This document shows, piece after piece, positions 2,920 through 21,215 of a DNA stretch of 55,770 nt; within the stretch, counting starts at the first letter, position 1; each line of letters begins with the position of its first letter. The position numbers and the translations under genes were made by a program. The notes under the pieces are model-generated. The model had not been told where the DNA came from. It did not search any database and saw nothing but the letters and a program-made list of their open reading frames with translations. Source of the stretch: Blastococcus mobilis. Lineage in GTDB: Bacteria > Actinomycetota > Actinomycetes > Mycobacteriales > Geodermatophilaceae. Where the stretch lies: the NCBI RefSeq assembly GCF_900188025.1, contig NZ_FZNO01000028.1, forward strand, positions 1 to 55,770, written 5' to 3'.

Positions 2920-4023
2920 TCAGCAGATGCGCGGCAGCGGGTCGCCCACCAGCATGTCGACGATCCGGCTGCCCCCGAAAGAGGTCTCCAGGAGGACGAT
3001 CCGCTCGGGCTCGCCGGCGATGCGGCCGATGACGGCGGCGTCGGCTCCGAGCGGATGCGCCCGCAGGGCGGTCAAGGCCGCCCCGGCCTCCTCGGCCGGG
3101 ACGACCGCCACGAACTTGCCCTCGTTGGCGACGTAGAGCGGGTCGATGCCGAGCAGGTCGCACGCGCCGCCCACCGGCCGCCGCACGGGCAGCGCGGACT
3201 CCTGCAGGACGACGGCGACCCCGGCCTGCGCGGCGAGCTCGTTGCAGACGGTGCCCACCCCGCCGCGCGTGGGGTCGCGCAGCCACCGGGTCCCCGGAGC
3301 CGCGGCGAGCAGCACCTCCACCAGCCCGGCGAGGGGCGCTGTGTCGGACGTGACGTCGGCCTCCAGGTCCAGATCCCCGCGGGCGAGCAGCACCGCCACG
3401 CCGTGGTCGCCTAGCGTGCCGCTGACCAGCACCACGTCCCCCGGCCGGACCCGGTCCGCGGCCAGCCGCCGGCCGGCGGGGACGAGCCCGACCCCGGCGG
3501 TGGTGATGAACACGCCGTCCGCGGCGCCGGTGTCGACCACCTTGGTGTCACCGGTGACCACCGTGACGCCGGCGGCGGCTGCAGCCGCGGCCATGTCGGC
3601 CGCGAGCGCGGCCAGCTCGGCCACCGGGAAGCCCTCCTCGATCACGAAAGCCGCGGACAGCCAGGACGGCCGGGCTCCGCACATCGCCAGGTCGTTGACC
3701 GTGCCGTGCACGGCGAGGGAGCCGATCGACCCACCGGGGAACCGGTGCGGGCGCACCACGTAGGAGTCGGTGGCGAAGGCGAGCTGGTCACCGGACGGCA
3801 GGGGCAGCAGCGCGCCGTCGCCCAGCTGTTCCAGCGCCTCGTTGCGGAACGCCTCGAGGAACACCGCGTCGATGAGCGCGGCCGAGGCCTTGCCCCCGGC
3901 CCCGTGCGCAAGCGTGACGACCTCGTCGGTGAGACGCGGCCGCCGGCGCCGGAAGGCCTCGATGCGTTCCAGCACCAGTTCCTGGCGCCCCTCCGGTACC
4001 GGAGGGTGCACGGTCGCGCTCAC
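2920..4023 (-). CDS. hypE: Hydrogenase expression/formation protein HypE
   Basis: HypE dehydrates the thiocarboxamide on its C-terminal Cys to thiocyanate and hands cyanide to the HypC-HypD iron centre. The 367-residue protein has the AIRS/PurM-like fold signatures (HGAGGKAS, VTGDTKVV, LRDPTRGGVGTV) and ends in the obligatory PRIC, with the reactive Cys as last residue. The GTG start at 4023 overlaps the hypD stop by GTGA, and its first residues (SATVHPPVPEG) lead straight into the domain. It is translationally coupled to hypD. Confidence 0.96.
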   Translation of the reverse strand: MSATVHPPVPEGRQELVLERIEAFRRRRPRLTDEVVTLAHGAGGKASAALIDAVFLEAFRNEALEQLGDGALLPLPSGDQLAFATDSYVVRPHRFPGGSIGSLAVHGTVNDLAMCGARPSWLSAAFVIEEGFPVAELAALAADMAAAAAAAGVTVVTGDTKVVDTGAADGVFITTAGVGLVPAGRRLAADRVRPGDVVLVSGTLGDHGVAVLLARGDLDLEADVTSDTAPLAGLVEVLLAAAPGTRWLRDPTRGGVGTVCNELAAQAGVAVVLQESALPVRRPVGGACDLLGIDPLYVANEGKFVAVVPAEEAGAALTALRAHPLGADAAVIGRIAGEPERIVLLETSFGGSRIVDMLVGDPLPRIC

Positions 4024-5159
4024 GAGGAGGCGGCGGCGAGTCCGGCCGCCGTCCGGTGCAGGCGCCCGAAGGTGTAGTAGGCCGCGCAGGCCCCCTCGGA
4101 GGACACCATGCAGGTGCCGATCGGCGTCTCCGGCGTGCAGGCGGTGCCGAAGACCTTGCACTCCCAGGGCTTGATGGCTCCCTTCAGCACCTCGCCGCAC
4201 TGGCAGGCCTTCGGGTCGGCCACCCGGACGCCGGGCAGGTCGAAGCGCCGCTCGGCGTCCCAGTCGGCGAAGTCCTCGGACAGCGCCAGCGCGCTCTGGG
4301 CGATGAAACCGAGTCCACGCCACTCGAAGTGCGGCCGCAGCCGGAACACCTGCTGCAGCATGGCCAGCGCGATCGGGTTGCCCTCGTCCCGGACGACGCG
4401 GGTGTACTGGTTCTCCACCTCGCACCGGCCCTCGGCGAACTGCTCGAGCAGCATCACGATCGCCTGGAGGATGTCCAGCGGCTCGAACCCCGTGGTCACC
4501 AGCGGCTTGCCGTACCGGCGGGCGACGAAGTCGTAGGGCCGGTTGCCGATGACCGTGCTCACGTGCCCCGGCCCGAGGAAACCGTCCAACCGCAGGTCGG
4601 GCGACTCCAGGATCGCCTTGAGCGGCGGGACGATCGTCACGTGGTTGGAGAAGACGCTGAAGTTGCGGATGCCCCTCTCCCGCGCCCGCAGCAGTGTCAC
4701 CGCCGTCGACGGCGCGGTGGTCTCGAAGCCGACCGCGAAGAACACGACCTGCATGTCCGGCGTGGCCTCGGCGATCTTCAGCGCGTCGAGCGGCGAGTAC
4801 ACCATCCGGACGTCGGCCCCGCGGGCCTTCGCCTCCAGCAGGCTGCCGGCGCTGCCCGGCACCCGCATCATGTCGCCGAACGAGGTGAAGACGACGCCGG
4901 GCCGCTCGGCCAGGGCAATGGCGTCGTCGACCCGGCCCATCGGGATGACGCAGACCGGACAGCCCGGACCGTGTACGAGCTCGACGGTTTCGGGGAGCAG
5001 CTGCTCGATGCCGTGCCGGTAGATGGTGTGCGTGTGCCCGCCGCACACCTCCATGAAGGCGTAGGGCAGGCCGCCGCGGCCGCCGTCGGCCAGCTCGGTG
5101 ATCCGGCGCACCGCCACACGGGCCGCCGCCGGGTCGCGGTACTCGTCGACGAACCTCAT
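4020..5159 (-). CDS. hypD: Fe-(CN)2CO scaffold protein HypD
   Basis: HypD forms with HypC the scaffold on which the Fe(CN)2CO unit is built. The 379 residues carry the hallmark motifs: CGGHTH with C39, GPGCPVC with C67/C70, GFETTAPSTA, and the C-terminal cluster-binding Cys set (ACQCGEVL, CKVFGTAC, GTCM). Length matches the family. The ATG start at 5159 overlaps the upstream SIS gene by ATGA, and hypE follows by GTGA, so expression is one coupled operon. Confidence 0.97.
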   Translation of the reverse strand: MRFVDEYRDPAAARVAVRRITELADGGRGGLPYAFMEVCGGHTHTIYRHGIEQLLPETVELVHGPGCPVCVIPMGRVDDAIALAERPGVVFTSFGDMMRVPGSAGSLLEAKARGADVRMVYSPLDALKIAEATPDMQVVFFAVGFETTAPSTAVTLLRARERGIRNFSVFSNHVTIVPPLKAILESPDLRLDGFLGPGHVSTVIGNRPYDFVARRYGKPLVTTGFEPLDILQAIVMLLEQFAEGRCEVENQYTRVVRDEGNPIALAMLQQVFRLRPHFEWRGLGFIAQSALALSEDFADWDAERRFDLPGVRVADPKACQCGEVLKGAIKPWECKVFGTACTPETPIGTCMVSSEGACAAYYTFGRLHRTAAGLAAASS

Positions 5160-5815: not shown

Positions 5816-6543
5816 GACGCCCCTCCTTGCGGGCCGGCGTCCAGCCGCGTGATGGCCATGCCGGCGTGCACGACGAGCAGGTCGTGCACGGCGACCGGGC
5901 CGACGAGCGACAGGTCCGCCTGCTCGAGGCCCTGACCGGCGCGGACCACCGCGGAGGCGCCCCGCACCTCGACGACCTCGGCCAGCCGCCCCTCGTCGGA
6001 GCAGGTGATGCAGACCGGACCGTCGCAGGCGGGGTCCGGCCGCAGCAGCCCGGGGTGCTCCAGCCAGACGTGCGCCAGCTCCCAGAGCAGGTGGTAGATC
6101 AGGATGAACCCGCCGTCGTGCACGGCGGCCTCGTCCGGCAGCCACAGCACGTGGTCGGCGACCCCGGCGGTGGGGCGCTCGCCCGCTCCGATCCACAGCG
6201 ACGTCAGGCCCCACGCCGGTGCCCGTCGGACCAGGTCGAGGACACCGGTGCAACCGGCCGGTCCGACGGCCACCAGCACGTCGCCGGGGCGGGCGTTGGC
6301 CCGGGCGACCGTGGTCGGGTCGTGCGGCGGGAGCGCCACCGCCGGCAGTGCGGGCTTGCCGACGACGACGGGGTGGACGAACTCGACGGCGACGTGCTGG
6401 GCGTGGTGCGGGGACGTCGGGGAGGCGCACCAGAGCGTGCCACCCGCGGCCAGCCGGCGCGCCAGGGTGCGGGACGCCGCCGCGAGGTCCTCGCCCAGCC
6501 CGGCGGGCAGCCCGGTCCCGGCCGGCGCGCGGGTCGCCGTCAC
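5812..6543 (-). CDS. SIS-like domain fused to a HypC/HupF-like domain
   Basis: A 243-residue protein. Residues about 15-165 form a SIS-like Rossmann domain (GDVLVAVGPAGCTGVL, TSLWIGAGERP); residues about 176-240 form a HypC-like beta barrel beginning VCITCSDEGRLAEVV and ending VVHAGMAITRL. Canonical HypC uses an N-terminal Met-Cys; here the candidate Cys residues (C178, C181) are internal. The GTG start at 6543 overlaps the hypC stop. It may act as a second chaperone or as a partner of the stand-alone SIS protein; this is inference from the fusion and its place in the operon. Confidence 0.85.
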   Translation of the reverse strand: MTATRAPAGTGLPAGLGEDLAAASRTLARRLAAGGTLWCASPTSPHHAQHVAVEFVHPVVVGKPALPAVALPPHDPTTVARANARPGDVLVAVGPAGCTGVLDLVRRAPAWGLTSLWIGAGERPTAGVADHVLWLPDEAAVHDGGFILIYHLLWELAHVWLEHPGLLRPDPACDGPVCITCSDEGRLAEVVEVRGASAVVRAGQGLEQADLSLVGPVAVHDLLVVHAGMAITRLDAGPQGGAS

Positions 6544-6860
6544 GACGTGGTCGCCCGCGGTGCCGCCGGGTCGGGGTGGAGACCCTCCACGATCGCGGAG
6601 TAGTCCGACAGCTCCTGCTCGTACATGTCCCCGAGCCGTTTGAGGGCGTCGAGGGTCTCCTTGGCCTCCGCCTCGTCGATCACCGCCATGGCGAAACCGA
6701 CGTGCACGAGCACCCAGTCCCCCACCCGGGCGCCTCCCGGCCCGTCGAGCCCGATCAGCGCCACGGACACCTCGCGCCGGACCCCGTCGACGTCGACCTT
6801 CGCCCGCAGCGCCGCGGGATCGCTGATCGCCACGATCTGACCGGGGATGCCGAGGCACAT
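6540..6860 (-). CDS. hypC: Hydrogenase assembly chaperone HypC
   Basis: HypC shuttles the Fe(CN)2CO group with HypD and binds the large-subunit precursor through its N-terminal Cys. The start is fixed at the ATG giving MCLGIPGQIV, because Cys2 is essential; an AGGAG lies about 10 bases upstream. The protein has 106 residues, with the barrel motif VGDWVLVHVGFAM and a longer helical tail than usual (ending APRATTS). It is the first gene of the coupled hyp operon and is divergent from the first cooC-like gene. Confidence 0.96.
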   Translation of the reverse strand: MCLGIPGQIVAISDPAALRAKVDVDGVRREVSVALIGLDGPGGARVGDWVLVHVGFAMAVIDEAEAKETLDALKRLGDMYEQELSDYSAIVEGLHPDPAAPRATTS

Positions 6861-6881
6861 GCGGGGAGCTCCTGAGAGTCG

Positions 6882-6895
6882 GTGACCTACGTCAC
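6882..6895. promoter_or_regulatory. CRP/GlxR-type palindrome between hypC and cooC1
   Basis: GTGACCTACGTCAC matches the core of the actinobacterial CRP/GlxR consensus TGTGANNTANNTCACA, including the central TA. It lies 21 bases upstream of the hypC start and 69 bases upstream of the divergent cooC-like gene, so one regulator could control both operons. Binding is inferred from the sequence only. Confidence 0.55.
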
Positions 6896-6964
6896 TGTAG
6901 GCGTCCAGGTAGATGTGTGGAACCACTAGCGAACTGCCCCCCGTTCGCGCCTACAGTCCCCGTC

Positions 6965-7723
6965 GTGCGGGTGGCCTTCGTGGGCAAGGGCGGCGCCGGC
7001 AAGTCGTCGCTGGCCGGGACGTTCGCCCGCCTGCTGGCCCGCACCGGTCAGCGCGTCCTGGCCCTGGACTCCGATCCCATGCCCGGGCTGGCATTCTCGC
7101 TCGGCGTCGGCGTGACCGATGCCGGCCTGCCGGACGACGCGGTCGAGGAGTACGAGGAGCGCGGACGCCGCCGGTACCGGCTGCGCGCCGGGCTGACCGG
7201 CCCGGAGGCGGTCGACCGGTACGCCGTCCGCGGGCCGGACGGGGTGCACTTCCTGCAGCTGGGCAAGGCGCGAGGCCCCCGGTGGAACAACAGCCGTCAG
7301 CACTTCGGGTTCCAGGGGGTGCTGGACGACCTCCCCGGGGACGGCTGGAGCATCGTCGGGGACCTGCCGGGCGGCACCCGGCAGCCGTTCATGACCTGGG
7401 GCCGCTACGCGCGGACCTTCCTGGTGGTCGTGGAGCCGTCCACGGCGTCCGTGCTGTCGGGGCGGCGCCTGGCCCGGCTGGCGGAGGGCAGCCGCAGGCC
7501 GCGGGTGCTGGCGGTGGCCAACAAGGTCCGGGAGCCCGACGACGGGGAGCTGATCGCGGCCGGTACCGGTCTGGAGGTCGTCGGCGCCGTCCCGATGGAC
7601 CGCGCACTCGCGGACGCCGACCGGCTGGGTCTCCCCGTCGTGGACGCGGAGCCTGACGCGCCGGCCGTCGCGGCAGTACGGTCGCTGGTGAACGCTCTGC
7701 GGGAACGGGAGGTGTCGTCGTGA
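6965..7723 (+). CDS. CooC-like P-loop ATPase (paralogue 1, no CxC)
   Basis: A MinD/CooC-type ATPase of 252 residues with the deviant Walker A GKGGAGKS near the N-terminus and LALDSDPMPGL as the switch region. CooC proteins insert nickel into CO dehydrogenase; relatives serve other metalloenzymes. Unlike its neighbours, this copy lacks the CxC nickel-binding pair: the equivalent stretch reads GPRWNNSRQHFG. The GTG at 6965 is chosen because VRVAFVGKGG puts the P-loop at the expected distance. Its stop overlaps the next gene by GTGA. A role in nickel insertion in the absence of a local HypB is inference. Confidence 0.8.
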   Translation: MRVAFVGKGGAGKSSLAGTFARLLARTGQRVLALDSDPMPGLAFSLGVGVTDAGLPDDAVEEYEERGRRRYRLRAGLTGPEAVDRYAVRGPDGVHFLQLGKARGPRWNNSRQHFGFQGVLDDLPGDGWSIVGDLPGGTRQPFMTWGRYARTFLVVVEPSTASVLSGRRLARLAEGSRRPRVLAVANKVREPDDGELIAAGTGLEVVGAVPMDRALADADRLGLPVVDAEPDAPAVAAVRSLVNALREREVSS

Positions 7724-8457
7724 AGATCGCCGTCGTCGGCAAGGGTGGCTCCGGCAAGACCACCACGTCCGCAGTGCTCGCCCGGACGTTCGCCCGGCAC
7801 GGGCACGAGACGCTGGCCCTCGACTGCGACACCAACCCCAACCTCGGGATCTCGCTGGGTCTCGGCGAGGAGGCCACCGAGCGGCTGGTGACCGTCCGCG
7901 ACGCCGTCGACGCGGGCGAGGAGGACCACGCGGTCAGCCCCGACGACCTGGTCGAGCGCTTCGGCGCGCCCGCCCCGGACGGCGTCCGCCTCGCTGTCGT
8001 CTCGGCGATCCAGAACCCGGAGCCGGGCTGCCCGTAGTGCGGGATCTCACCTGAGCAGTTGCTCGGGCAGCTGGAACGTCCCGGTCGCGCCGTCGTCGCC
8101 GACTTCGAAGCGGGCCTCGGCACCGTGCTGCGCCTCGACGGGCAGCACGTCGACGTCGTGGTGGTCGTGGTGGAGCCGACCGCCAAGTCGCTGGAGGTCG
8201 GGCGCCGGGCGGCCGACGCCGTCCGGGAGGGCGGCCTGGGCCGCGTCGTCGTCACCGCCAACCGGGTGCGCGACGACGAGGACGTCGCCCGCGTGCGTGC
8301 GGCGTTCCCGGACCTGGAGCGCGTCCTGGTGCCGGACGAACCGGCGATCGTCGCCGCCGAGCGGCGGGGCGAGGCACCGCTCGACGTGGCACCGGACTCC
8401 GCCGGCGTGAAGGCGCTGGTCGGACTTGCCGAGCACCTCCTTCCCGGTGGGGCCTGA
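7720..8457 (+). CDS. CooC-like ATPase (paralogue 2) with in-frame UAG at residue 106; candidate selenoprotein
   Basis: Residues 1-105 are a CooC-type N-terminal half (P-loop GKGGSGKT, LALDCDTNPNL) ending EPGCP; then comes a TAG at 8035-8037; the same frame continues CGISPEQLLGQLE and on through the conserved ADFEAGLG and VVEPTAKSL to a TGA at 8455-8457. Aligned with paralogues at 8845 (GCTCGG, C112/C114) and 20445 (GCLCAA, C106/C108), the UAG falls on the second Cys of the CxC metal site (C104-P-UAG106). The rest has no lesion and total length (245) matches the paralogues. UAG as selenocysteine codon has been reported in Geodermatophilus and Blastococcus, so Sec106 is plausible; a nonsense mutation or sequencing error is the alternative. 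TTG at 8059 is unlikely to be a real separate start. Confidence 0.7.
8040..8083 (+). promoter_or_regulatory. Candidate SECIS-like stem-loop after the UAG
   Basis: Immediately after the TAG the RNA can form a 7-bp stem CCUGAGC/GCUCGGG (8050-8056 with 8061-8067, one U-G pair) closed by the tetraloop AGUU, with an outer CGGGA/UCCCG pairing (8040-8044 with 8079-8083). The apical loop starts 19 nt after the stop codon, inside the spacing typical of bacterial SECIS elements, and has a G at its second position. GC-rich coding DNA folds easily, so this is supportive rather than conclusive. Confidence 0.45.
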
Positions 8458-8844: not shown

Positions 8845-9639
8845 TTATCCGTCCGCTGCGAGCGATCCCCGGCTGCTCTCGACGGCGTCGAGCACCGTCT
8901 CCAGCTCGGCTCGGACGGCGGGTGTTCCTGGCGGGCTGCCCACCGCGCCGGCGCGGTCGGCGCGGGCGACGTCCTCGTCGTAGGGCAGCACGCCGGCGAC
9001 CGCCAGGCCTTCCTCGGCGAGCGCGGTGCGGAGGTAATCCTCGTCCTCCGGGGAGCGCGCCTTGTTGCCGACCGCCAGCACCTTCGGGATCCCCAGCTCG
9101 GCCGCGAGCGTCGCCGTCCGTACCGCGGTGACCACCGACTTGCGGGTCGGCTCGCAGACCACCAGCAGCAGGTCCGCGTGGGCGAGGGTGCCTCCGGACC
9201 GGCTCAGGTGCTCGAGTCCGGCCTCCATGTCGACCAGCGTCAGATCCACGTCCGCCAGCGCGTCGGCGAGCAGGCTGCGGACGGTCGCGTGTCCGCCGCA
9301 GGTGCACCCCGCACCGGCCTGCGCCACCCTGATCGCCGACAGCAGCGTCGGGCCGGCGGGCGTGGGCCGTCCGTACTCCCCGACGAGGTCCTCCGCCGCC
9401 GGCCCGCCGGCCCGGCCGACCACCACGCTGCGCGGCAGCACGGGGACGGCTTCGGTCTCCTCGAGCGAGAGCCCGAGCGACAGACCGAGGTTCGGGTTCG
9501 AGTCGGTGTCGATGGCCACCACCGTCCGGCCCCGTTCCGCCCACGCGCGGGCGAGCAGCCCGGCGACCGTCGTTTTGCCGACCCCTCCCTTTCCCACCAC
9601 TCCGACCTTGAGAGCTACCGGACGTGCCGTGGTGGTCAT
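8845..9639 (-). CDS. CooC-like nickel-insertion-type ATPase (paralogue 3)
   Basis: A 264-residue MinD/CooC-type ATPase: P-loop VVGKGGVGKTT, AIDTDSNPNL, the CxC pair C112-T-C114 (the same numbering as in CO-dehydrogenase CooC) and VDMEAGLEHLSR. The ATG at 9639 is preferred because GAGGAG lies a few bases upstream. It should be a soluble ATP-dependent metallochaperone that dimerises around a metal at CxC. It is divergent from the NifU-like gene. Nickel as ligand and the hydrogenase as client are inference. Confidence 0.88.
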   Translation of the reverse strand: MTTTARPVALKVGVVGKGGVGKTTVAGLLARAWAERGRTVVAIDTDSNPNLGLSLGLSLEETEAVPVLPRSVVVGRAGGPAAEDLVGEYGRPTPAGPTLLSAIRVAQAGAGCTCGGHATVRSLLADALADVDLTLVDMEAGLEHLSRSGGTLAHADLLLVVCEPTRKSVVTAVRTATLAAELGIPKVLAVGNKARSPEDEDYLRTALAEEGLAVAGVLPYDEDVARADRAGAVGSPPGTPAVRAELETVLDAVESSRGSLAADG

Positions 9640-9666
9640 CAGCTGCTCCTCGCTGCGATCGCCGGT

Positions 9667-9682
9667 TGTGGCGCAGGTCACC
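9667..9682. promoter_or_regulatory. Weak CRP/GlxR-like site between cooC3 and the NifU-like gene
   Basis: TGTGGCGCAGGTCACC keeps both TGTG and TCAC half-sites at the right spacing for TGTGA-N6-TCACA, with mismatches at the inner A, the central T and the last base. It lies 28 bases upstream of cooC3 and 82 bases upstream of the divergent NifU-like gene. Confidence 0.3.
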
Positions 9683-9763
9683 TACTGCGAGGCACACTGC
9701 CACCACGTCGCCGAACCGTCGACAGGCAGGAGGACCGCGCTATGGCCACGGTCCGCCCCGCAC

Positions 9764-10315
9764 ATGGCTGACCCGAGCCCGGCCTCCGAGGCGGCGCTGG
9801 CGGAGCTCGGCCCGCTGCTCGACCGACTCGAGGAGCTGTTCGGCGAGGTCGAACAATTCGACGAGGCCGTCCGCGCCAAGGTGTTCGAGCTGCTCGACGG
9901 CGTGGACTCGATCCACCGGCTGGCAGTGACCCGGCTGGCCGACGCGCTGGGCGCCGATGTCGACGGACTGCGGCGCAGCGATCCGGCGGTCGCCTGGCTG
10001 TTCGAGGCCTACGGGGTGGGGGTCGACGACGTCGCGGCGGCCACCGCCGCCCTCGATCCGGTCCGGCCCTACATCACCGAGCACGGCGGCGACGTCCAGG
10101 TTCTCGGCGTCGAGCGCGGCGTGGTCCGGGTCCGCCTGAACGGCGCCTGCTCGGGCTGCACGTCGGCGGCCCAGACGCTGCGGTACGGCGTGGAGCAGGC
10201 CCTGCGGGACAACCTACCCGGCTTCGTCGCGATGGAGGTCGCCCCCGACAGCGGTGCGGCCCCGCACCCGCCGCCCGGCCCGGTGCTGCTGCAGATCCAG
10301 CCCCGGCCGGCGTGA
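9764..10315 (+). CDS. NifU-like Fe-S scaffold/carrier with extra N-terminal domain
   Basis: The last ~90 residues form a NifU C-terminal domain: VRPYITEHGGDVQVLGVE, then GACSGCTSA with the cluster-binding CxxC. About 95 helical N-terminal residues (rich in Leu, Glu, Asp) are not part of classical NifU. It probably delivers Fe-S clusters to the three-cluster hydrogenase small subunit (inference). The ATG at 9764 is the first in frame; a strong AGGAGG at 9728-9733 instead serves an out-of-frame ATG at 9742 that would make a nine-residue peptide overlapping the start, so translation may be coupled to it. Confidence 0.85.
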   Translation: MADPSPASEAALAELGPLLDRLEELFGEVEQFDEAVRAKVFELLDGVDSIHRLAVTRLADALGADVDGLRRSDPAVAWLFEAYGVGVDDVAAATAALDPVRPYITEHGGDVQVLGVERGVVRVRLNGACSGCTSAAQTLRYGVEQALRDNLPGFVAMEVAPDSGAAPHPPPGPVLLQIQPRPA

Positions 10316-10331: not shown

Positions 10332-10826
10332 TCAGCCTCCGGTGGCGACGTGCTCGGCCAGCAGCCGGTCGACCTCCGCTGCCGCGAGCTCGACCGCTCG
10401 TCCGGTGGCCGGCGACAGGCCCTGTCCGACCCGGTCGGTGTCGGTGGTCTGCACCCCCACCACGAAGGTGACGTCGGGCAGCACACCCAGGGCCCGCGCG
10501 ACCATGAGCGTCTTCTCCGGGGTAGCCAGGTGCATGTCGGCGAGCTCGTCGCGCCGCCGCTCGGGCGGAAGGGTTGCGACGTCGAGGACCTGCGGACGCT
10601 GGACCACGACGGTGCCGGGCGGCCGGCCCAGGTCGACGGCGTCGACGACGATCAAGACGGCGATACCGCGCATCAGCTCCTGCACCAGGTGGATGCCCCC
10701 GATGCCGACCTCGAGGACGTCCACCCCGGCGGGCAGCTCCCGCGCCAGGAGCCGCTCGGCGACCGCGCTGCCGAACCCGTCGTCCCCGCGGAGCACGTTG
10801 CCGAAGCAGGCGACGATCGCGCTCAC
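10332..10826 (-). CDS. Hydrogenase maturation protease (HyaD/HycI family)
   Basis: This peptidase would remove the C-terminal extension of the hydrogenase large subunit after nickel insertion. The 164 residues contain the family signature CFGNVLRGDDGFG with its nickel-sensing acidic residue, the VVDAVDLGRPPGTV strand and a later conserved His (DMHLATPEKT). Length is typical. It is transcribed divergently from the TPR gene, with starts only 19 bp apart. Confidence 0.93.
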   Translation of the reverse strand: MSAIVACFGNVLRGDDGFGSAVAERLLARELPAGVDVLEVGIGGIHLVQELMRGIAVLIVVDAVDLGRPPGTVVVQRPQVLDVATLPPERRRDELADMHLATPEKTLMVARALGVLPDVTFVVGVQTTDTDRVGQGLSPATGRAVELAAAEVDRLLAEHVATGG

Positions 10827-16292: not shown

Positions 16293-18194
16293 TCAGTCAC
16301 CGCCGCAGGAGCAGGTGTTGACCTCGCGGACCACCTCGCCGGCACCGGTGTGCACGTGCGTCGTGCACGGCATGCACGGGTCGAAGCTCCGGATGGCCCG
16401 CAGCATGTCGATGCTGGTGAAGTCCGACGGGTCGGACATCCGCTCGAGGATCGGCGTGTTCATCACCGCCTCCTCGTACGGGCCCGGCTGGTCCCACGGG
16501 TCGCGCGGTGAGGCGTTGATCGTCGACGGCGTGCAGATCTGGTAGTTGGTGATCTTGCCCTTGTCCATGACCAGGTGGTGGGTGAGCCACCCGCGTCCGG
16601 CCCCCCACCAGCCGACGCTGACCCGCTCGTCGTCGGGGATGGCCTTCTCGAGCTCCTCCGGATCCAGGGCGGCGACCCTGCGCTCCCCCCGCCGGTGCAG
16701 GTCGTAGGCCTGCAGCAGGCTCTCGAGTGCCACGAGCTGGCTGAACAGGTAGTGGTAGGCGCGGCCGCGGTTGCGCTCGAAGGCATTCCACTTCTCCGGC
16801 ACCCGCCATTCCACCTCCCGCTCGCCGGTCTCGCCCTTGGGCACGACGAAGCGCATGCTCGACCCGGTGGCCGTCATGAACCGGCTCTCGGGCATCTTCT
16901 GAGCCGTGGCCGTCATGAGCAGGCGGGAGTAGCAGCCGGCCTCCACCACCTGGCGGTCCCAGCGGGGAGTGCACGCCCAGGTGTACTTGTCCTTCCAGTT
17001 CTTGGCGCCGGGCTTGGGGAGGGTCCGCTTGTTCCAGGGGTGGTAGGGCGAGAGGGGGTTGCCCAGCGGGTCGGTCGCGAAGCGGGTGGTCGAGGACTCC
17101 TCGTAGTAGGAGTGCTCGACGAACTCCTCCCATCCGATGTTGATGTCCGTGAGCCGGGTGGTCAGCAGTTCACCACCGATCACCACGCCCGGCGTGGACC
17201 AGCGCTTCTCGCCCCAGGCGTTGCAGTTCGCGTAGGTGGCGTCGTACGCGTACGGATCGTCCCAGTAGCCGGGATCGATCTGGTTCGACGGCCGGTATCC
17301 GGTGAGCTGGTACCGCTCGTCGGCCTCGTAGAAGAAGGTGGGGATGTCGTCCCACACCGCCATCATCCGCTGGGCGTAGTCGAAGATCTTGCCCAGCCGC
17401 GAGTGGTACTCGTTGAGCGCCTGCAGGGTCAGGGTCGTCGACACCCCACCGGGCACCACGTTCTCGGGGTGCGGGTACTTGCCGGTCAGCAGCACGACCA
17501 TCTCGCGGGACAGCCGGGTGAACTCCAGACCCTCCCGGTACAGCGCCCCCGTCAGGGGGTTGAGCGCCGTCATGAGGTCGGCCATCGTCGCGAAGCCGTG
17601 GATGTGCGCGTTGGGGCAGCTCCACGCCTCGGCCTTGGGCCACAGCTCGGGGTTGGTGGTCTTGACGACCGATTCGGAGTAGTCCGGCCCGGCCAGCAGG
17701 TAGAGGTGCAGCGGGTTGTCGTAGCCCATCTCCGCCGCCTCGGTCATGTTGCGGACGACGGTGCCCAGCGGTGGCGGCGTGATGCCCATCGCGGACTCGA
17801 TCGCGTACGCCGCCGCGTGCGCGTGCACCCCGCCGCAGACCCCGCAGGCGCGGGACGCCACGAAGATCGCGTCGCGTGGGTCGCGACCCATGAGGATCAC
17901 CTCGTACCCGCGGAACAGCGTGGCGACGGCGTGCGAGTCGAGGTACGCCCGGTTCTCCAGATCGGCCGTGACGTGCACGGCCATGGCGCCGGCGATGCGC
18001 GTCACCGGGTCCATGTTGAGGTCCTTGATGTGCCCGTTGCGGGCCATCAGGCGCTCGATCCGCGCGGTGCGCTCCTCCTCCGTCGTCCCGACGTCCGGCT
18101 TTGCGACCGTGACGTCGTACGGGTTGGGGATGCCGCCGCGCAGCGTGGCCTGTCCGCGCTCGTCGAACTCGACCGGCAGGGTCTTGAAGCACAT
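16293..18194 (-). CDS. hhyL: [NiFe]-hydrogenase large subunit, group 1h type
   Basis: Carries the NiFe active site that oxidises H2. 633 residues starting MCFKTLPVEF, with AGGAG just upstream. The L1 motif is RACGVC (C117, C120) and the L2 motif DPCMPCTTH ends at H613; the 20 residues after it (VHTGAGEVVREVNTCSCGGD) are the expected protease-removed tail. All four nickel Cys are TGY codons, so it is not a NiFeSe enzyme. The sequence style and the Tat-less partner fit the high-affinity actinobacterial group 1h, which scavenges atmospheric H2. Operon order is small, large, protease-like. Confidence 0.95.
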   Translation of the reverse strand: MCFKTLPVEFDERGQATLRGGIPNPYDVTVAKPDVGTTEEERTARIERLMARNGHIKDLNMDPVTRIAGAMAVHVTADLENRAYLDSHAVATLFRGYEVILMGRDPRDAIFVASRACGVCGGVHAHAAAYAIESAMGITPPPLGTVVRNMTEAAEMGYDNPLHLYLLAGPDYSESVVKTTNPELWPKAEAWSCPNAHIHGFATMADLMTALNPLTGALYREGLEFTRLSREMVVLLTGKYPHPENVVPGGVSTTLTLQALNEYHSRLGKIFDYAQRMMAVWDDIPTFFYEADERYQLTGYRPSNQIDPGYWDDPYAYDATYANCNAWGEKRWSTPGVVIGGELLTTRLTDINIGWEEFVEHSYYEESSTTRFATDPLGNPLSPYHPWNKRTLPKPGAKNWKDKYTWACTPRWDRQVVEAGCYSRLLMTATAQKMPESRFMTATGSSMRFVVPKGETGEREVEWRVPEKWNAFERNRGRAYHYLFSQLVALESLLQAYDLHRRGERRVAALDPEELEKAIPDDERVSVGWWGAGRGWLTHHLVMDKGKITNYQICTPSTINASPRDPWDQPGPYEEAVMNTPILERMSDPSDFTSIDMLRAIRSFDPCMPCTTHVHTGAGEVVREVNTCSCGGD

Positions 18195-18223: not shown

Positions 18224-19585
18224 TCAGATGCGGGGGTTGGGGCTGCCACCGCTCGGGGCCTCGTCCCGCTTCCCCCACACGTCGGCCTTCGCCTTTCCCC
18301 GGTCCCCGGAGCGGCGGAGCATGTCGTAGAACTTGTGGTTGATCTCCGCCAGCGCGGAGGGCTCGGCCTTCTCCCGCCCGAAGCCGCTGGGCGTCGCGCC
18401 CTGCCGGTCCCAGCGCACCTCCCGGTTGAGGTGGTTGTTGCTGAACTTGCGCAGCGGCCGGATGACGCTGCCCACCATCCGCGAGACCGTGGTCGACGCG
18501 AACGAACCAGGCGGCCGCTTGTAGAACGGGGTGAACTTGTCGGGGAAGCCGGGCATGGTGCAGCCGATGCACGGTCCGCCGGCGTTCATGCAGCCACCGA
18601 CATGGTTGATCATCCCGCGCGAGGTGATGTTGCAGTTGACGACGGGCCCCCAGCAGCCCACCTCGACGAGGCACTCCGGGTCACCGAACTCCTGCGCGAA
18701 CGTGCCCTCCTCGTAGTAGGCACCCCGCACGCAGTGGCGGTGCACCGTCTCCCCGAAGAGCCAGGCCGGCCGGCCGAGCTCGTCGAACTCGGGCAGCGGC
18801 CCGAAGCCCTGGAGGAAGTAGAGGATCGCCGCCACGGTCTCGGTGAAGTTGTCACCGATGGGCGGGCACCCCGGGACGTTGACCACCGGGACCCCGAAGG
18901 TGGAGCGGTAGTCCTTGCCGAGCCAGTCCATCAGGCTCATCGCGCCCGTCGGGTTGCCTTCGGCCGACGGGATGCCACCCCAGGTGGCGCACGTCCCGAT
19001 TGCGATCATGGCAGCCGCGTTCGGCGCCAGGCGGGCGATCCACTCCGACGCGGTGACCGGCCGCATCTCGCCGTCCGGACCCCAGGGCTCCTCGCCCTGG
19101 CCGGACCAGTAGCCACCCGTGGCGTAGGCCGCCAGCTCGTCGGAGATGGAGCCCTCGAGGACGACGGCGTAGGGGGCGTTCAGCGTGCCTGCCATCGCCT
19201 GCTCAGCCGCGCGCACGTAGTGCGGGCCGGACTCCATGTTGAGGACGGGGTGGTGCAGCACCACGCGGGGCAGCCCCGGATGCGCGCCCAGGAGCATGCT
19301 CTCCACCGACGGGCTCGTCGCCCCCGTCACGGCCACGCTGCAGCCGTCGCAACTCATGCCCGCGAACCAGAAGACGTGGATCTTCTGCAGGGGCCCGAAC
19401 CGGGTCGCCGCCGTCGTCTCGTCGCCGCCGGCCAGCATGTCCTCGGTGACCCGGCCCGACGGCAGACCGAAGGCCCCGACCTCCTCGGTGTCGTGGAACC
19501 GCTCGACCGGTCCGAGCGCGTCCAGGAGCTCCTGCGCCGGGGTGCGCGCCTGCAGTGCAGGCGTGCGGGTCTGTCGGTCTGCCAT
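18224..19585 (-). CDS. hhyS: [NiFe]-hydrogenase small subunit, group 1h type
   Basis: Electron-transfer subunit, 453 residues, no Tat signal. Cluster ligands are visible: GMSCDGC (C79, C82), IGTCATWGG (C199) and NVPGCPP (C240) for the proximal cluster; HRHC (C285), C305, C311 and C318; then GCMNAGGPCIGC (C332, C339, C342). An N-terminal extension of about 65 residues and a long C-terminal tail (after about residue 350) distinguish it from exported groups and fit group 1h. The ATG at 19585 has GGGAG upstream. It is divergent from the regulatory genes at 19691. Confidence 0.95.
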   Translation of the reverse strand: MADRQTRTPALQARTPAQELLDALGPVERFHDTEEVGAFGLPSGRVTEDMLAGGDETTAATRFGPLQKIHVFWFAGMSCDGCSVAVTGATSPSVESMLLGAHPGLPRVVLHHPVLNMESGPHYVRAAEQAMAGTLNAPYAVVLEGSISDELAAYATGGYWSGQGEEPWGPDGEMRPVTASEWIARLAPNAAAMIAIGTCATWGGIPSAEGNPTGAMSLMDWLGKDYRSTFGVPVVNVPGCPPIGDNFTETVAAILYFLQGFGPLPEFDELGRPAWLFGETVHRHCVRGAYYEEGTFAQEFGDPECLVEVGCWGPVVNCNITSRGMINHVGGCMNAGGPCIGCTMPGFPDKFTPFYKRPPGSFASTTVSRMVGSVIRPLRKFSNNHLNREVRWDRQGATPSGFGREKAEPSALAEINHKFYDMLRRSGDRGKAKADVWGKRDEAPSGGSPNPRI

Positions 19586-20077: not shown

Positions 20078-20448
20078 GCGGCGCACCTCCCGAGGAGGTC
20101 CCCGTCGCCCTCCCCCGCAACTACCTCCGGCCCTGCCTGCTCCTGCTCCTGGCCGAGGGCACCTCCCACGGCTACGAACTGCTGGAGCAGGTGTCCGCCC
20201 TCGGCCTGGACCGGGTGGATCCTGGCGGGCTGTACCGCAGCCTGCGGGCCATGGACGAGGAGGGCCTGGTCCGCTCGGCCTGGCAACCGTCGGCCAGCGG
20301 TCCGGCACGACGCACGTACGAGCTGACCGACGAGGGCCGGGAGTGGCTGCACGCGGTCGCCGGCTCCCTCGAGCACGTCGCCCGCAGCCTCGATGCCTAC
20401 AGCGCGCGCTACCGGGCGGTCCTCGAGCAGGGCAGGCTGCGACGGTGA
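20074..20448 (+). CDS. PadR-family transcriptional regulator
   Basis: 124 residues with the PadR winged helix: LLLLLAEGTSHGYELLEQV, GGLYRSLRAMDEEGLV and RRTYELTDEGREWL, followed by a short dimerisation helix. It lies between the winged-helix/Cys protein and a cooC-like gene, coupled on both sides (GTGA). The ligand is unknown; it probably regulates the hydrogenase genes or this operon. Confidence 0.88.
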   Translation: MSGAPPEEVPVALPRNYLRPCLLLLLAEGTSHGYELLEQVSALGLDRVDPGGLYRSLRAMDEEGLVRSAWQPSASGPARRTYELTDEGREWLHAVAGSLEHVARSLDAYSARYRAVLEQGRLRR

Positions 20449-21215
20449 GGATCGCCCTCGCCGGCAAGGGCGGCGCGGGAAAGACGACGCTGTCGGCCAC
20501 CCTGTCTCTGTTGGCCGCCCGCGGCGGGCGGAAGGTCGTCGCCGTCGACGCCGACGCCAACCCCAATCTCGCCGCCGCGCTCGGGGCGGCGCCGGCGGCC
20601 GGCCGGCTGCAGCCCGTCCCCGTCTCGCTGGTCTCCCGGCGCCGTGGCGGCACCGGGCTGCTGGAGCCGGTCAACACGGTGCTCGACCGGTACGCCGCTG
20701 CGGGACCCGACGGCATCCGGTTGCTCGGGATGGGTGGCCCGGCGCACGCCGACGAGGGCTGCCTGTGCGCCGCGCACGCGGTGGTGTCCTCCGTCCTCGA
20801 GGACCTCGGCGCCCCGGGGCGTCTCGTCGTCGTCGACATGGAGGCTTCTCCGGAGCACCTGAGCCGGGGCACCGTCCGGCACGTCGACGCGGTGCTCCTG
20901 GTCGCCGAGCCGTACTACAGGTCCCTGGAGACGGTGCGGCGGATGAGCGCACTGGTTGCCGAGTTGACGGTGCCCTACGTCGCGGTCGTGGCCAACAAGG
21001 TGCGCTCGACGGGGGACCGGGAGGCCGTCGAGGAGTTCTGCGCGCGGCACGGCCTCGCGTTCGCCGGCGCGGTCCCGTGGAGTGACGCCGTCGGCGCGGC
21101 CGACCGGGCGCGGGTCGCGGTCGCCGACTGGCCCGGGACCGGCGACGTGCTCACCGCGGTGCAGGACGTGGCGGCGTCCCTCGGCCGGATCACCGGCCGC
21201 CGCCTGCTGGGCTGA
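20445..21215 (+). CDS. CooC-like nickel-insertion-type ATPase (paralogue 4)
   Basis: 256 residues: P-loop LAGKGGAGKTT, AVDADANPNL, CxC at C106-L-C108 and VVDMEASPEHLSRG. GTG start overlapping padR. Its 3' end overlaps the convergent ABC ATPase by 26 bases. It is the fourth CooC-like protein in 15 kb, and one of two with an intact CxC pair. Confidence 0.88.
   Translation: MRIALAGKGGAGKTTLSATLSLLAARGGRKVVAVDADANPNLAAALGAAPAAGRLQPVPVSLVSRRRGGTGLLEPVNTVLDRYAAAGPDGIRLLGMGGPAHADEGCLCAAHAVVSSVLEDLGAPGRLVVVDMEASPEHLSRGTVRHVDAVLLVAEPYYRSLETVRRMSALVAELTVPYVAVVANKVRSTGDREAVEEFCARHGLAFAGAVPWSDAVGAADRARVAVADWPGTGDVLTAVQDVAASLGRITGRRLLG

Follow-up and report, generated by a model that had tools for sequence, protein, structure and literature searches.

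A single TAG codon (8035–8037) interrupts the frame of an ATPase gene that lies among [NiFe] hydrogenase genes of Blastococcus mobilis, at positions 1–55,770 of contig NZ_FZNO01000028.1 (the whole stretch of DNA that was analysed, here called the window). Two questions are raised by this locus: what protein would be made if the codon were read through, and how is the codon read in this host?

The reading frame and its orthologues

The frame (7720–8457, plus strand) ran from a GTG start, overlapping the stop of the upstream gene (GTGA), through 105 sense codons, a TAG at codon 106 and 139 further sense codons to a TGA at 8455–8457. If read through, it would encode a protein of 245 amino acids, designated here the Sec ATPase. 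The protein was of the MinD/CbiA type, matching the model PF01656 over cut-off and containing a deviant Walker A motif (GKGGSGKTT, residues 7–15) as in the CooC fold; among NCBIfam models, no match over cut-off was obtained. By sequence, its best relative of solved structure was the carbon monoxide dehydrogenase (CODH) nickel ATPase CooC1 (3kje, E 7.5e-13). An AlphaFold model built from 23 sequences had a pLDDT of 90, and Foldseek ranked a MinD first and CooC1 second, with NifH-type Fe proteins also matching.

Codon 104 (Cys, 8029–8031) and codon 106 (TAG) aligned exactly with Cys112 and Cys114 of CooC1, which bind metal at the dimer interface, one Ni per dimer, according to the available part of PMC6006190. 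An extra Cys followed the TAG at codon 107 (8038–8040), giving a metal-site motif C-P-UAG-C (codons 104–107, 8029–8040) within the full motif G-C-P-UAG-C-G. The Sec ATPase thus resembled CooC1 of Carboxydothermus in fold family, deviant Walker A and columns of the metal cysteines, but the similarity was remote, and it differed in the extra Cys after the motif, in the predicted selenocysteine (Sec) within it and in its location among [NiFe] hydrogenase genes, where three CooC-like paralogues are also encoded. Given this location, we name the gene CooC-like and not CooC.

Four CooC-like genes were present in this cluster, the Sec ATPase included. One paralogue (6917–7723, plus) lacked the CxC motif and overlapped the start of the Sec ATPase gene, a second (8845–9681, minus) had a C-T-C motif (GCTCGG), and a third (20343–21215, plus, start not defined, stop TGA) had a C-L-C motif (GCLCAA). 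The preliminary description of this DNA had reported a frame clean on both sides of a single TAG, the two paralogue motifs, and a TAG seated on the second Cys of a CxC site, and all three observations were borne out.

Orthologues were collected from three sources. A sample of 112 genomes of the family gave seven full orthologues and one fragment starting 3′ of the codon, a sample of 396 genomes of the phylum gave 12 with an orthologue at E 2.4e-71 or better (the window's own included), and a scan of a collection of genome contigs gave 38 loci. When only the highest-scoring stretch of each locus was counted, with a minimum of 240 bits, 39 orthologues were obtained; fragment copies (L015 and L143), records of repeat genomes (L117, L122, L126, L127 and L128) and weaker or remote homologues were left out. 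Column 106 was TAG in five, TGA in 26 and Cys in eight of the 39, which is the alternation of UAG, UGA and Cys codons that the preliminary description had proposed as a check for a Sec site. Blastococcus saxobsidens DSM 44509 and Modestobacter sp. DSM 44400 are among the records with the UAG gene. Column 104 was Cys in 24 and TGA in 15, and all of the 15 TGA rows also had TGA at column 106 (U-P-U). Both columns were thus occupied by Cys or a Sec codon in 39/39 orthologues, in agreement with the CxC of the CooC family, and the in-frame stop of column 106 was aligned with the Cys of homologues throughout. Column 107 was Cys in every orthologue (31/31 Sec forms and 8/8 Cys forms). In three loci (L098, L134 and L136), there was also another copy of lower score that had Cys in both columns.

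In the U-P-U orthologues (L088, L094, L096, L097, L129–L131, L133, L135 and L137–L142), the two UGA codons were followed by one conserved SECIS hairpin.

The hydrogenase gene cluster and the metal site

On the minus strand, the cluster in the window encoded HypF (558–2906), a HypE-like protein with AIRS domains (2920–3990, start not defined), HypD (4020–5159), HypC (6540–6926), a hydrogenase maturation protease of the HycI family (10332–10826), and the large (16293–18188, start not defined, nearest solved structure 5AA5) and small (18224–19585) subunits of a [NiFe] hydrogenase. A NifU-like domain protein (9740–10315, start not defined) was encoded on the plus strand. The relatives' loci were 27 when four repeats among 31 rows were removed, and were 3.6–20 kb long. 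A gene for HypC, D, E or F, the protease or a hydrogenase subunit was found in 21 of them, the large subunit in 10, and the earlier assignment of the protein to hydrogenase maturation fits both these loci and the window's own cluster. The paralogue without CxC was found in 26/27 loci; in the exception, the contig starts only within the Sec ATPase gene. The other six loci (L078, L079, L131, L136, L137 and L140) showed neither Hyp nor protease nor hydrogenase genes; of these, L137 and L140 were 15–17 kb long, which speaks against a fixed link with hydrogenase in Acidimicrobiia. No plasmid-borne copy of the Sec ATPase gene was matched in a plasmid collection.

In four genomes of the family with one large subunit each (G000, the window's own, and G024, G043 and G008), HypA was absent and HypB was below cut-off; weak HypB matches in two of them (55.7 and 46.4 bits) are perhaps UreG. 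In G104, HypA and HypB adjoined a second large subunit, which was encoded on a different contig. In G070 and G067, they were not on the contig of the Sec ATPase gene but elsewhere, in assemblies too fragmented to assign their hydrogenase. Among 32 further genomes, HypA was found in 11, i.e. in 5/24 with a Sec form and 6/8 with a Cys form (Fisher 0.0099). The occurrence of HypA in some Sec-form and most Cys-form genomes indicated that HypA can occur together with this ATPase.

The HypA/HypB pair and the Sec ATPase share one proposed step, NTP-driven delivery of nickel to the hydrogenase large subunit, but they belong to different protein families. The architectures of CooC and HypB are described as very similar in the part of PMC9164220 that was available. 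The HypB model TIGR00073 was not among the 24 NCBIfam models matched by the Sec ATPase at E 0.001; the protein may work like HypB, but it is not one.

Judged from sequence, the Sec ATPase is probably a metal chaperone for the adjoining [NiFe] hydrogenase. An ATP-driven dimer of this CooC-like protein, with C-P-Sec-C-G as its metal site, would most likely hold a metal ion, probably nickel, between two C-P-U-C loops and pass it on to the neighbouring enzyme's large subunit, replacing HypA/HypB. The selenolate ligands may bind soft Ni(II) more strongly and may allow easier recovery from oxidation in an aerobic soil bacterium. Since HypA and HypB were missing in four genomes with one hydrogenase, we infer that the Sec ATPase, together with a partner, does the nickel step in their place, which we rate as slightly better than an even chance. 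Against a chaperone role for a hydrogenase we count the result, given in the available part of PMC6006190, that inactivation of cooC, cooT and cooJ in R. rubrum leaves its Ni-Fe hydrogenase unaffected. Because six of the 27 loci show no hydrogenase-related gene, Sec decoding and a metal-chaperone role taken jointly are put at likely and no higher.

Two other functions of the site were considered. The Sec could be redox-active and not a metal ligand, with U106 and C107 (or C104) joined in a selenenylsulfide, which would reduce a maturation partner or control the release of metal. It adjoins the invariant Cys of column 107, and most uncharacterised selenoproteins are considered likely redox proteins in section 7 of PMC13188914. 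However, the site falls on the CxC by which CooC1 binds metal, and the U-P-U forms have Sec at both positions of the CxC; a redox function is unlikely. Somewhat more doubtful again is a dimer with a NifH-like iron-sulfur cluster, held partly by Sec, that gives electrons or the cluster itself to HypD or the hydrogenase. The match of the predicted fold to NifH-type Fe proteins and the NifU-like gene in the cluster are consistent with such a dimer, but nitrogenase Fe proteins scored E 5e-4 or worse by sequence, behind CooC1, and we know of no NifH-type cluster for which Sec is a natural ligand. A metal chaperone is the function that we prefer for the Sec ATPase.

Decoding of the UAG codon

Flanks at least as open as those of the TAG were found around 94 stops, 20 of them TAG, in the six frames of this high-GC window, and the open flanks alone are weak evidence of readthrough. 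Conservation, not openness, exceeds chance, since dN/dS is low after the UAG and column 106 contains only Sec codons or Cys in 39/39 orthologues. In ten pairs of the five TAG orthologues, dN/dS was 0.12–0.41 after the TAG vs 0.12–0.34 before it. The stretch 3′ of the UAG is under purifying selection and is not decayed, whereas decay of close orthologues around the codon had been named in the preliminary description as a sign against Sec. A nonsense mutation, an assembly error or a programmed termination, leaving a broken gene or a 105-aa product, would agree with the meaning of UAG in the standard code and with flanks of a kind common in GC-rich DNA, but UAG or UGA at exactly codon 106 in 31 orthologues, dN/dS of no more than 0.41 after the UAG and the position of over half of the protein behind it make any of these very improbable. 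The readings as a pseudogene or an assembly artefact were rejected on orthologue conservation and dN/dS.

The genome of the window contained one strong tRNA-Sec, with anticodon CUA (67 bits by Rfam vs a cut-off of 47); the other Rfam match over the tRNA-Sec cut-off (48.2 bits) was a tRNA-Ser. Matches above the respective curated cut-offs placed selD, selA and selB within 5 kb of the CUA tRNA-Sec gene. The host thus possessed SelA, SelB, SelD and a tRNA-Sec reading UAG, the machinery that a Sec reading had been expected to need. In the same genome, the gene for the formate dehydrogenase FdhA (L194, contig C61, 17624–18523, minus) contained one TAG, which occupied the position of the canonical Sec codon (ARI-TAG-HSATVPG). 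Pyrrolysine, or insertion by an ordinary suppressor tRNA, suggested by the tRNA-Pyl label that ARAGORN gave to the CUA tRNA gene, is barely credible and the pyrrolysine reading was rejected, as Rfam scored the gene as tRNA-Sec at 67 bits, PylS reached 22.1 bits, below its cut-off of 178.15, and the 34 non-UAG orthologues had UGA or Cys, none Lys, at column 106.

In the genomes of the orthologues, a tRNA-Sec was called at 60 bits or more, a line of our own; lower matches, where inspected, were tRNA-Ser. A CUA tRNA-Sec was found in 5/5 genomes with a UAG orthologue, and a UCA tRNA-Sec in 19/19 genomes with a UGA orthologue where a tRNA-Sec was called (Fisher 2.4e-5 for codon vs anticodon, relatedness ignored). 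A tRNA-Sec was called in 24/31 Sec-form vs 2/8 Cys-form genomes (Fisher 0.0098, relatedness ignored). None at 60 bits or more was found in the remaining seven Sec-form genomes, of which G067, G504, G251 and G311 were 82%, 78%, 95% and 94% complete, and G507, G518 and G525 were without a quality figure.

In a Geodermatophilaceae genome (G058), a UCA tRNA-Sec (L038:1173–1263, contig C17) was present besides a further tRNA-Sec, with a gene for an HTH_38-domain protein a few kb off. The UCA tRNA-Sec (L166:1399–1489) of the Nocardioidaceae metagenome-assembled genome behind L120 seemingly has C for U just before the anticodon.

A putative bacterial SECIS hairpin (8050–8067, plus; CCUGAGC-AGUU-GCUCGGG) with a stem of 7 bp and an AGUU loop followed the UAG, at 12 nt to the hairpin and 19 nt to the loop. 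Bacterial SECIS elements are described in section 5 of PMC13188914, as far as available, as having a loop of 3–9 nt, an upper stem of 4–16 bp, a G in the first two loop positions, a spacing of 16–37 nt and an MFE of −7.5 or lower. The hairpin lay within all these limits, with G as the second loop base, and the MFE was −7.5 or lower in 31/31 Sec forms. The four codons of its core (GAG CAG TTG CTC) were identical in 31/31 Sec forms, and the core was kept in 1/8 Cys forms. Identity of synonymous codons was 0.87 in the nine codons from codon 112 vs 0.50 outside codons 107–121. Two pairs of the stem were changed on both sides (C-G to G-C and C-G to U-A), and 99% of cells paired. None of 500 shuffles equalled the hairpin in pairing, in doubly changed cells or in covariation score; the other two of these five measures, which count changed pairs and pair types, did not beat the shuffles (102 and 495 of 500, respectively). 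The 51-nt fold from the UAG was only mildly more stable than shuffled sequences (z −1.36, 19/200 as low).

In the eight Cys forms, pairing in the hairpin was 62.5%, no better than shuffled. The Cys form of L119 (L119:2635–2682) keeps the exact hairpin, and that of L136 also folds well. L119 is likely a recent Sec-to-Cys change, its hairpin being a relic. In the U-P-U forms, one and the same hairpin would be needed for both UGA codons, which lie six bases apart.

The proposal of UAG as a Sec codon, made in the preliminary description from this DNA alone, is strongly supported by the Sec machinery, the match of codon and anticodon, the predicted SECIS hairpin and the orthologue column, and on these sequence data the UAG at 8035–8037 is almost certainly decoded as Sec. 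Decoding would use the host's own SelA, SelB, SelD and CUA tRNA-Sec, be directed by the hairpin at 8050–8067, and place selenium in the protein.

A tree of the 39 orthologue proteins was constructed with both Sec columns masked. The TAG label required at least three changes on it, all forced by well-supported branches (3/500 shuffles were as low), and TGA and Cys rows were mixed in with the TAG rows; the changes may be gains or losses. With that many changes, the codon is not simply tracking the gene lineage. Either the gene moved between lineages with its codon rewritten to fit, or the codon switched several times in place. Members of the ATPase family occur across Actinomycetota, for the most part with UGA and in many cases with two Sec; in Geodermatophilaceae, the UAG version represents a codon-switched form of the family.

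A second CooC-like subfamily was found among the weaker matches of the phylum sample (L099–L109, 11 loci), with TGA at the first metal Cys (column 104) and Cys at the second. All 11 were closest to the C-L-C paralogue of the window (20343–21215), and a hydrogenase small subunit was inside the short locus in seven. The folding energy of the 45 nt after the TGA, calculated without a shuffle control, was at or below −15 kcal/mol in ten loci and −12.5 kcal/mol in the remaining one. Five of the eleven genomes were searched for tRNA-Sec; it was found at 60 bits or more in G222 and G187, with UCA in both, and none was found in G456, G429 and G128.

Relation to known selenoproteins and metal chaperones

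UAG-encoded Sec in Geodermatophilaceae, mentioned in the preliminary description, is already known from formate dehydrogenases, UGSC-motif proteins and an AhpC (PMC5330540, available part). These proteins have in common with the Sec ATPase the bacterial family, the CUA tRNA-Sec and a UAG-Sec followed by a bacterial SECIS; no metallochaperone ATPase is named among the UAG selenoproteins in the part of that paper at hand. COG0523/CobW GTPases are, like the Sec ATPase, P-loop NTPases that handle metals, and they have a CxCC motif (PMC9164220, in part); a CobW-related selenoprotein (NF041053) with one Sec in a UxxC motif is listed in the available part of PMC13188914. They are of another NTPase class, however, and the motif of that selenoprotein is UxxC and not C-P-U-C or U-P-U-C.

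A MinD/CooC/CbiA family is absent from Table 1 of a census published in 2026 (PMC13188914), which covers 119 families of prokaryotic selenoproteins, as far as that source was available. No Sec form of CooC was found in the literature searched, mostly titles and abstracts, and no report of a Sec-containing CooC-like or other metallochaperone ATPase was found in the literature on selenoproteins, CooC/HypB and Geodermatophilaceae, few subscription papers being covered in either search.

We put at even odds a broader proposal, that in Actinobacteria one branch of [NiFe] hydrogenases is matured not by HypA/HypB but by a set of CooC-like ATPases with selenium in the nickel site (C-P-U-C, U-P-U-C with a single SECIS, and a U-L-C paralogue), and that the codon was switched between UGA and UAG with the host tRNA in Geodermatophilaceae, apparently more than once. 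To our knowledge, no Sec-coordinated metallochaperone system was known before; if the proposal is true, this CooC-like set is the first. The family of the Sec ATPase would add to the 119 families of the census a type of selenoprotein family, a MinD-type metal-chaperone ATPase with Sec at a metal ligand position and up to two Sec per site. The same gene with UGA or UAG, in step with the host tRNA-Sec, offers a natural experiment on codon reassignment. Sec ATPase genes look truncated to standard annotation, and some hydrogenase clusters may therefore be misread. The locus points to a route of nickel insertion free of HypA/HypB in soil actinobacteria, which, we presume from related hydrogenases, may burn atmospheric hydrogen.
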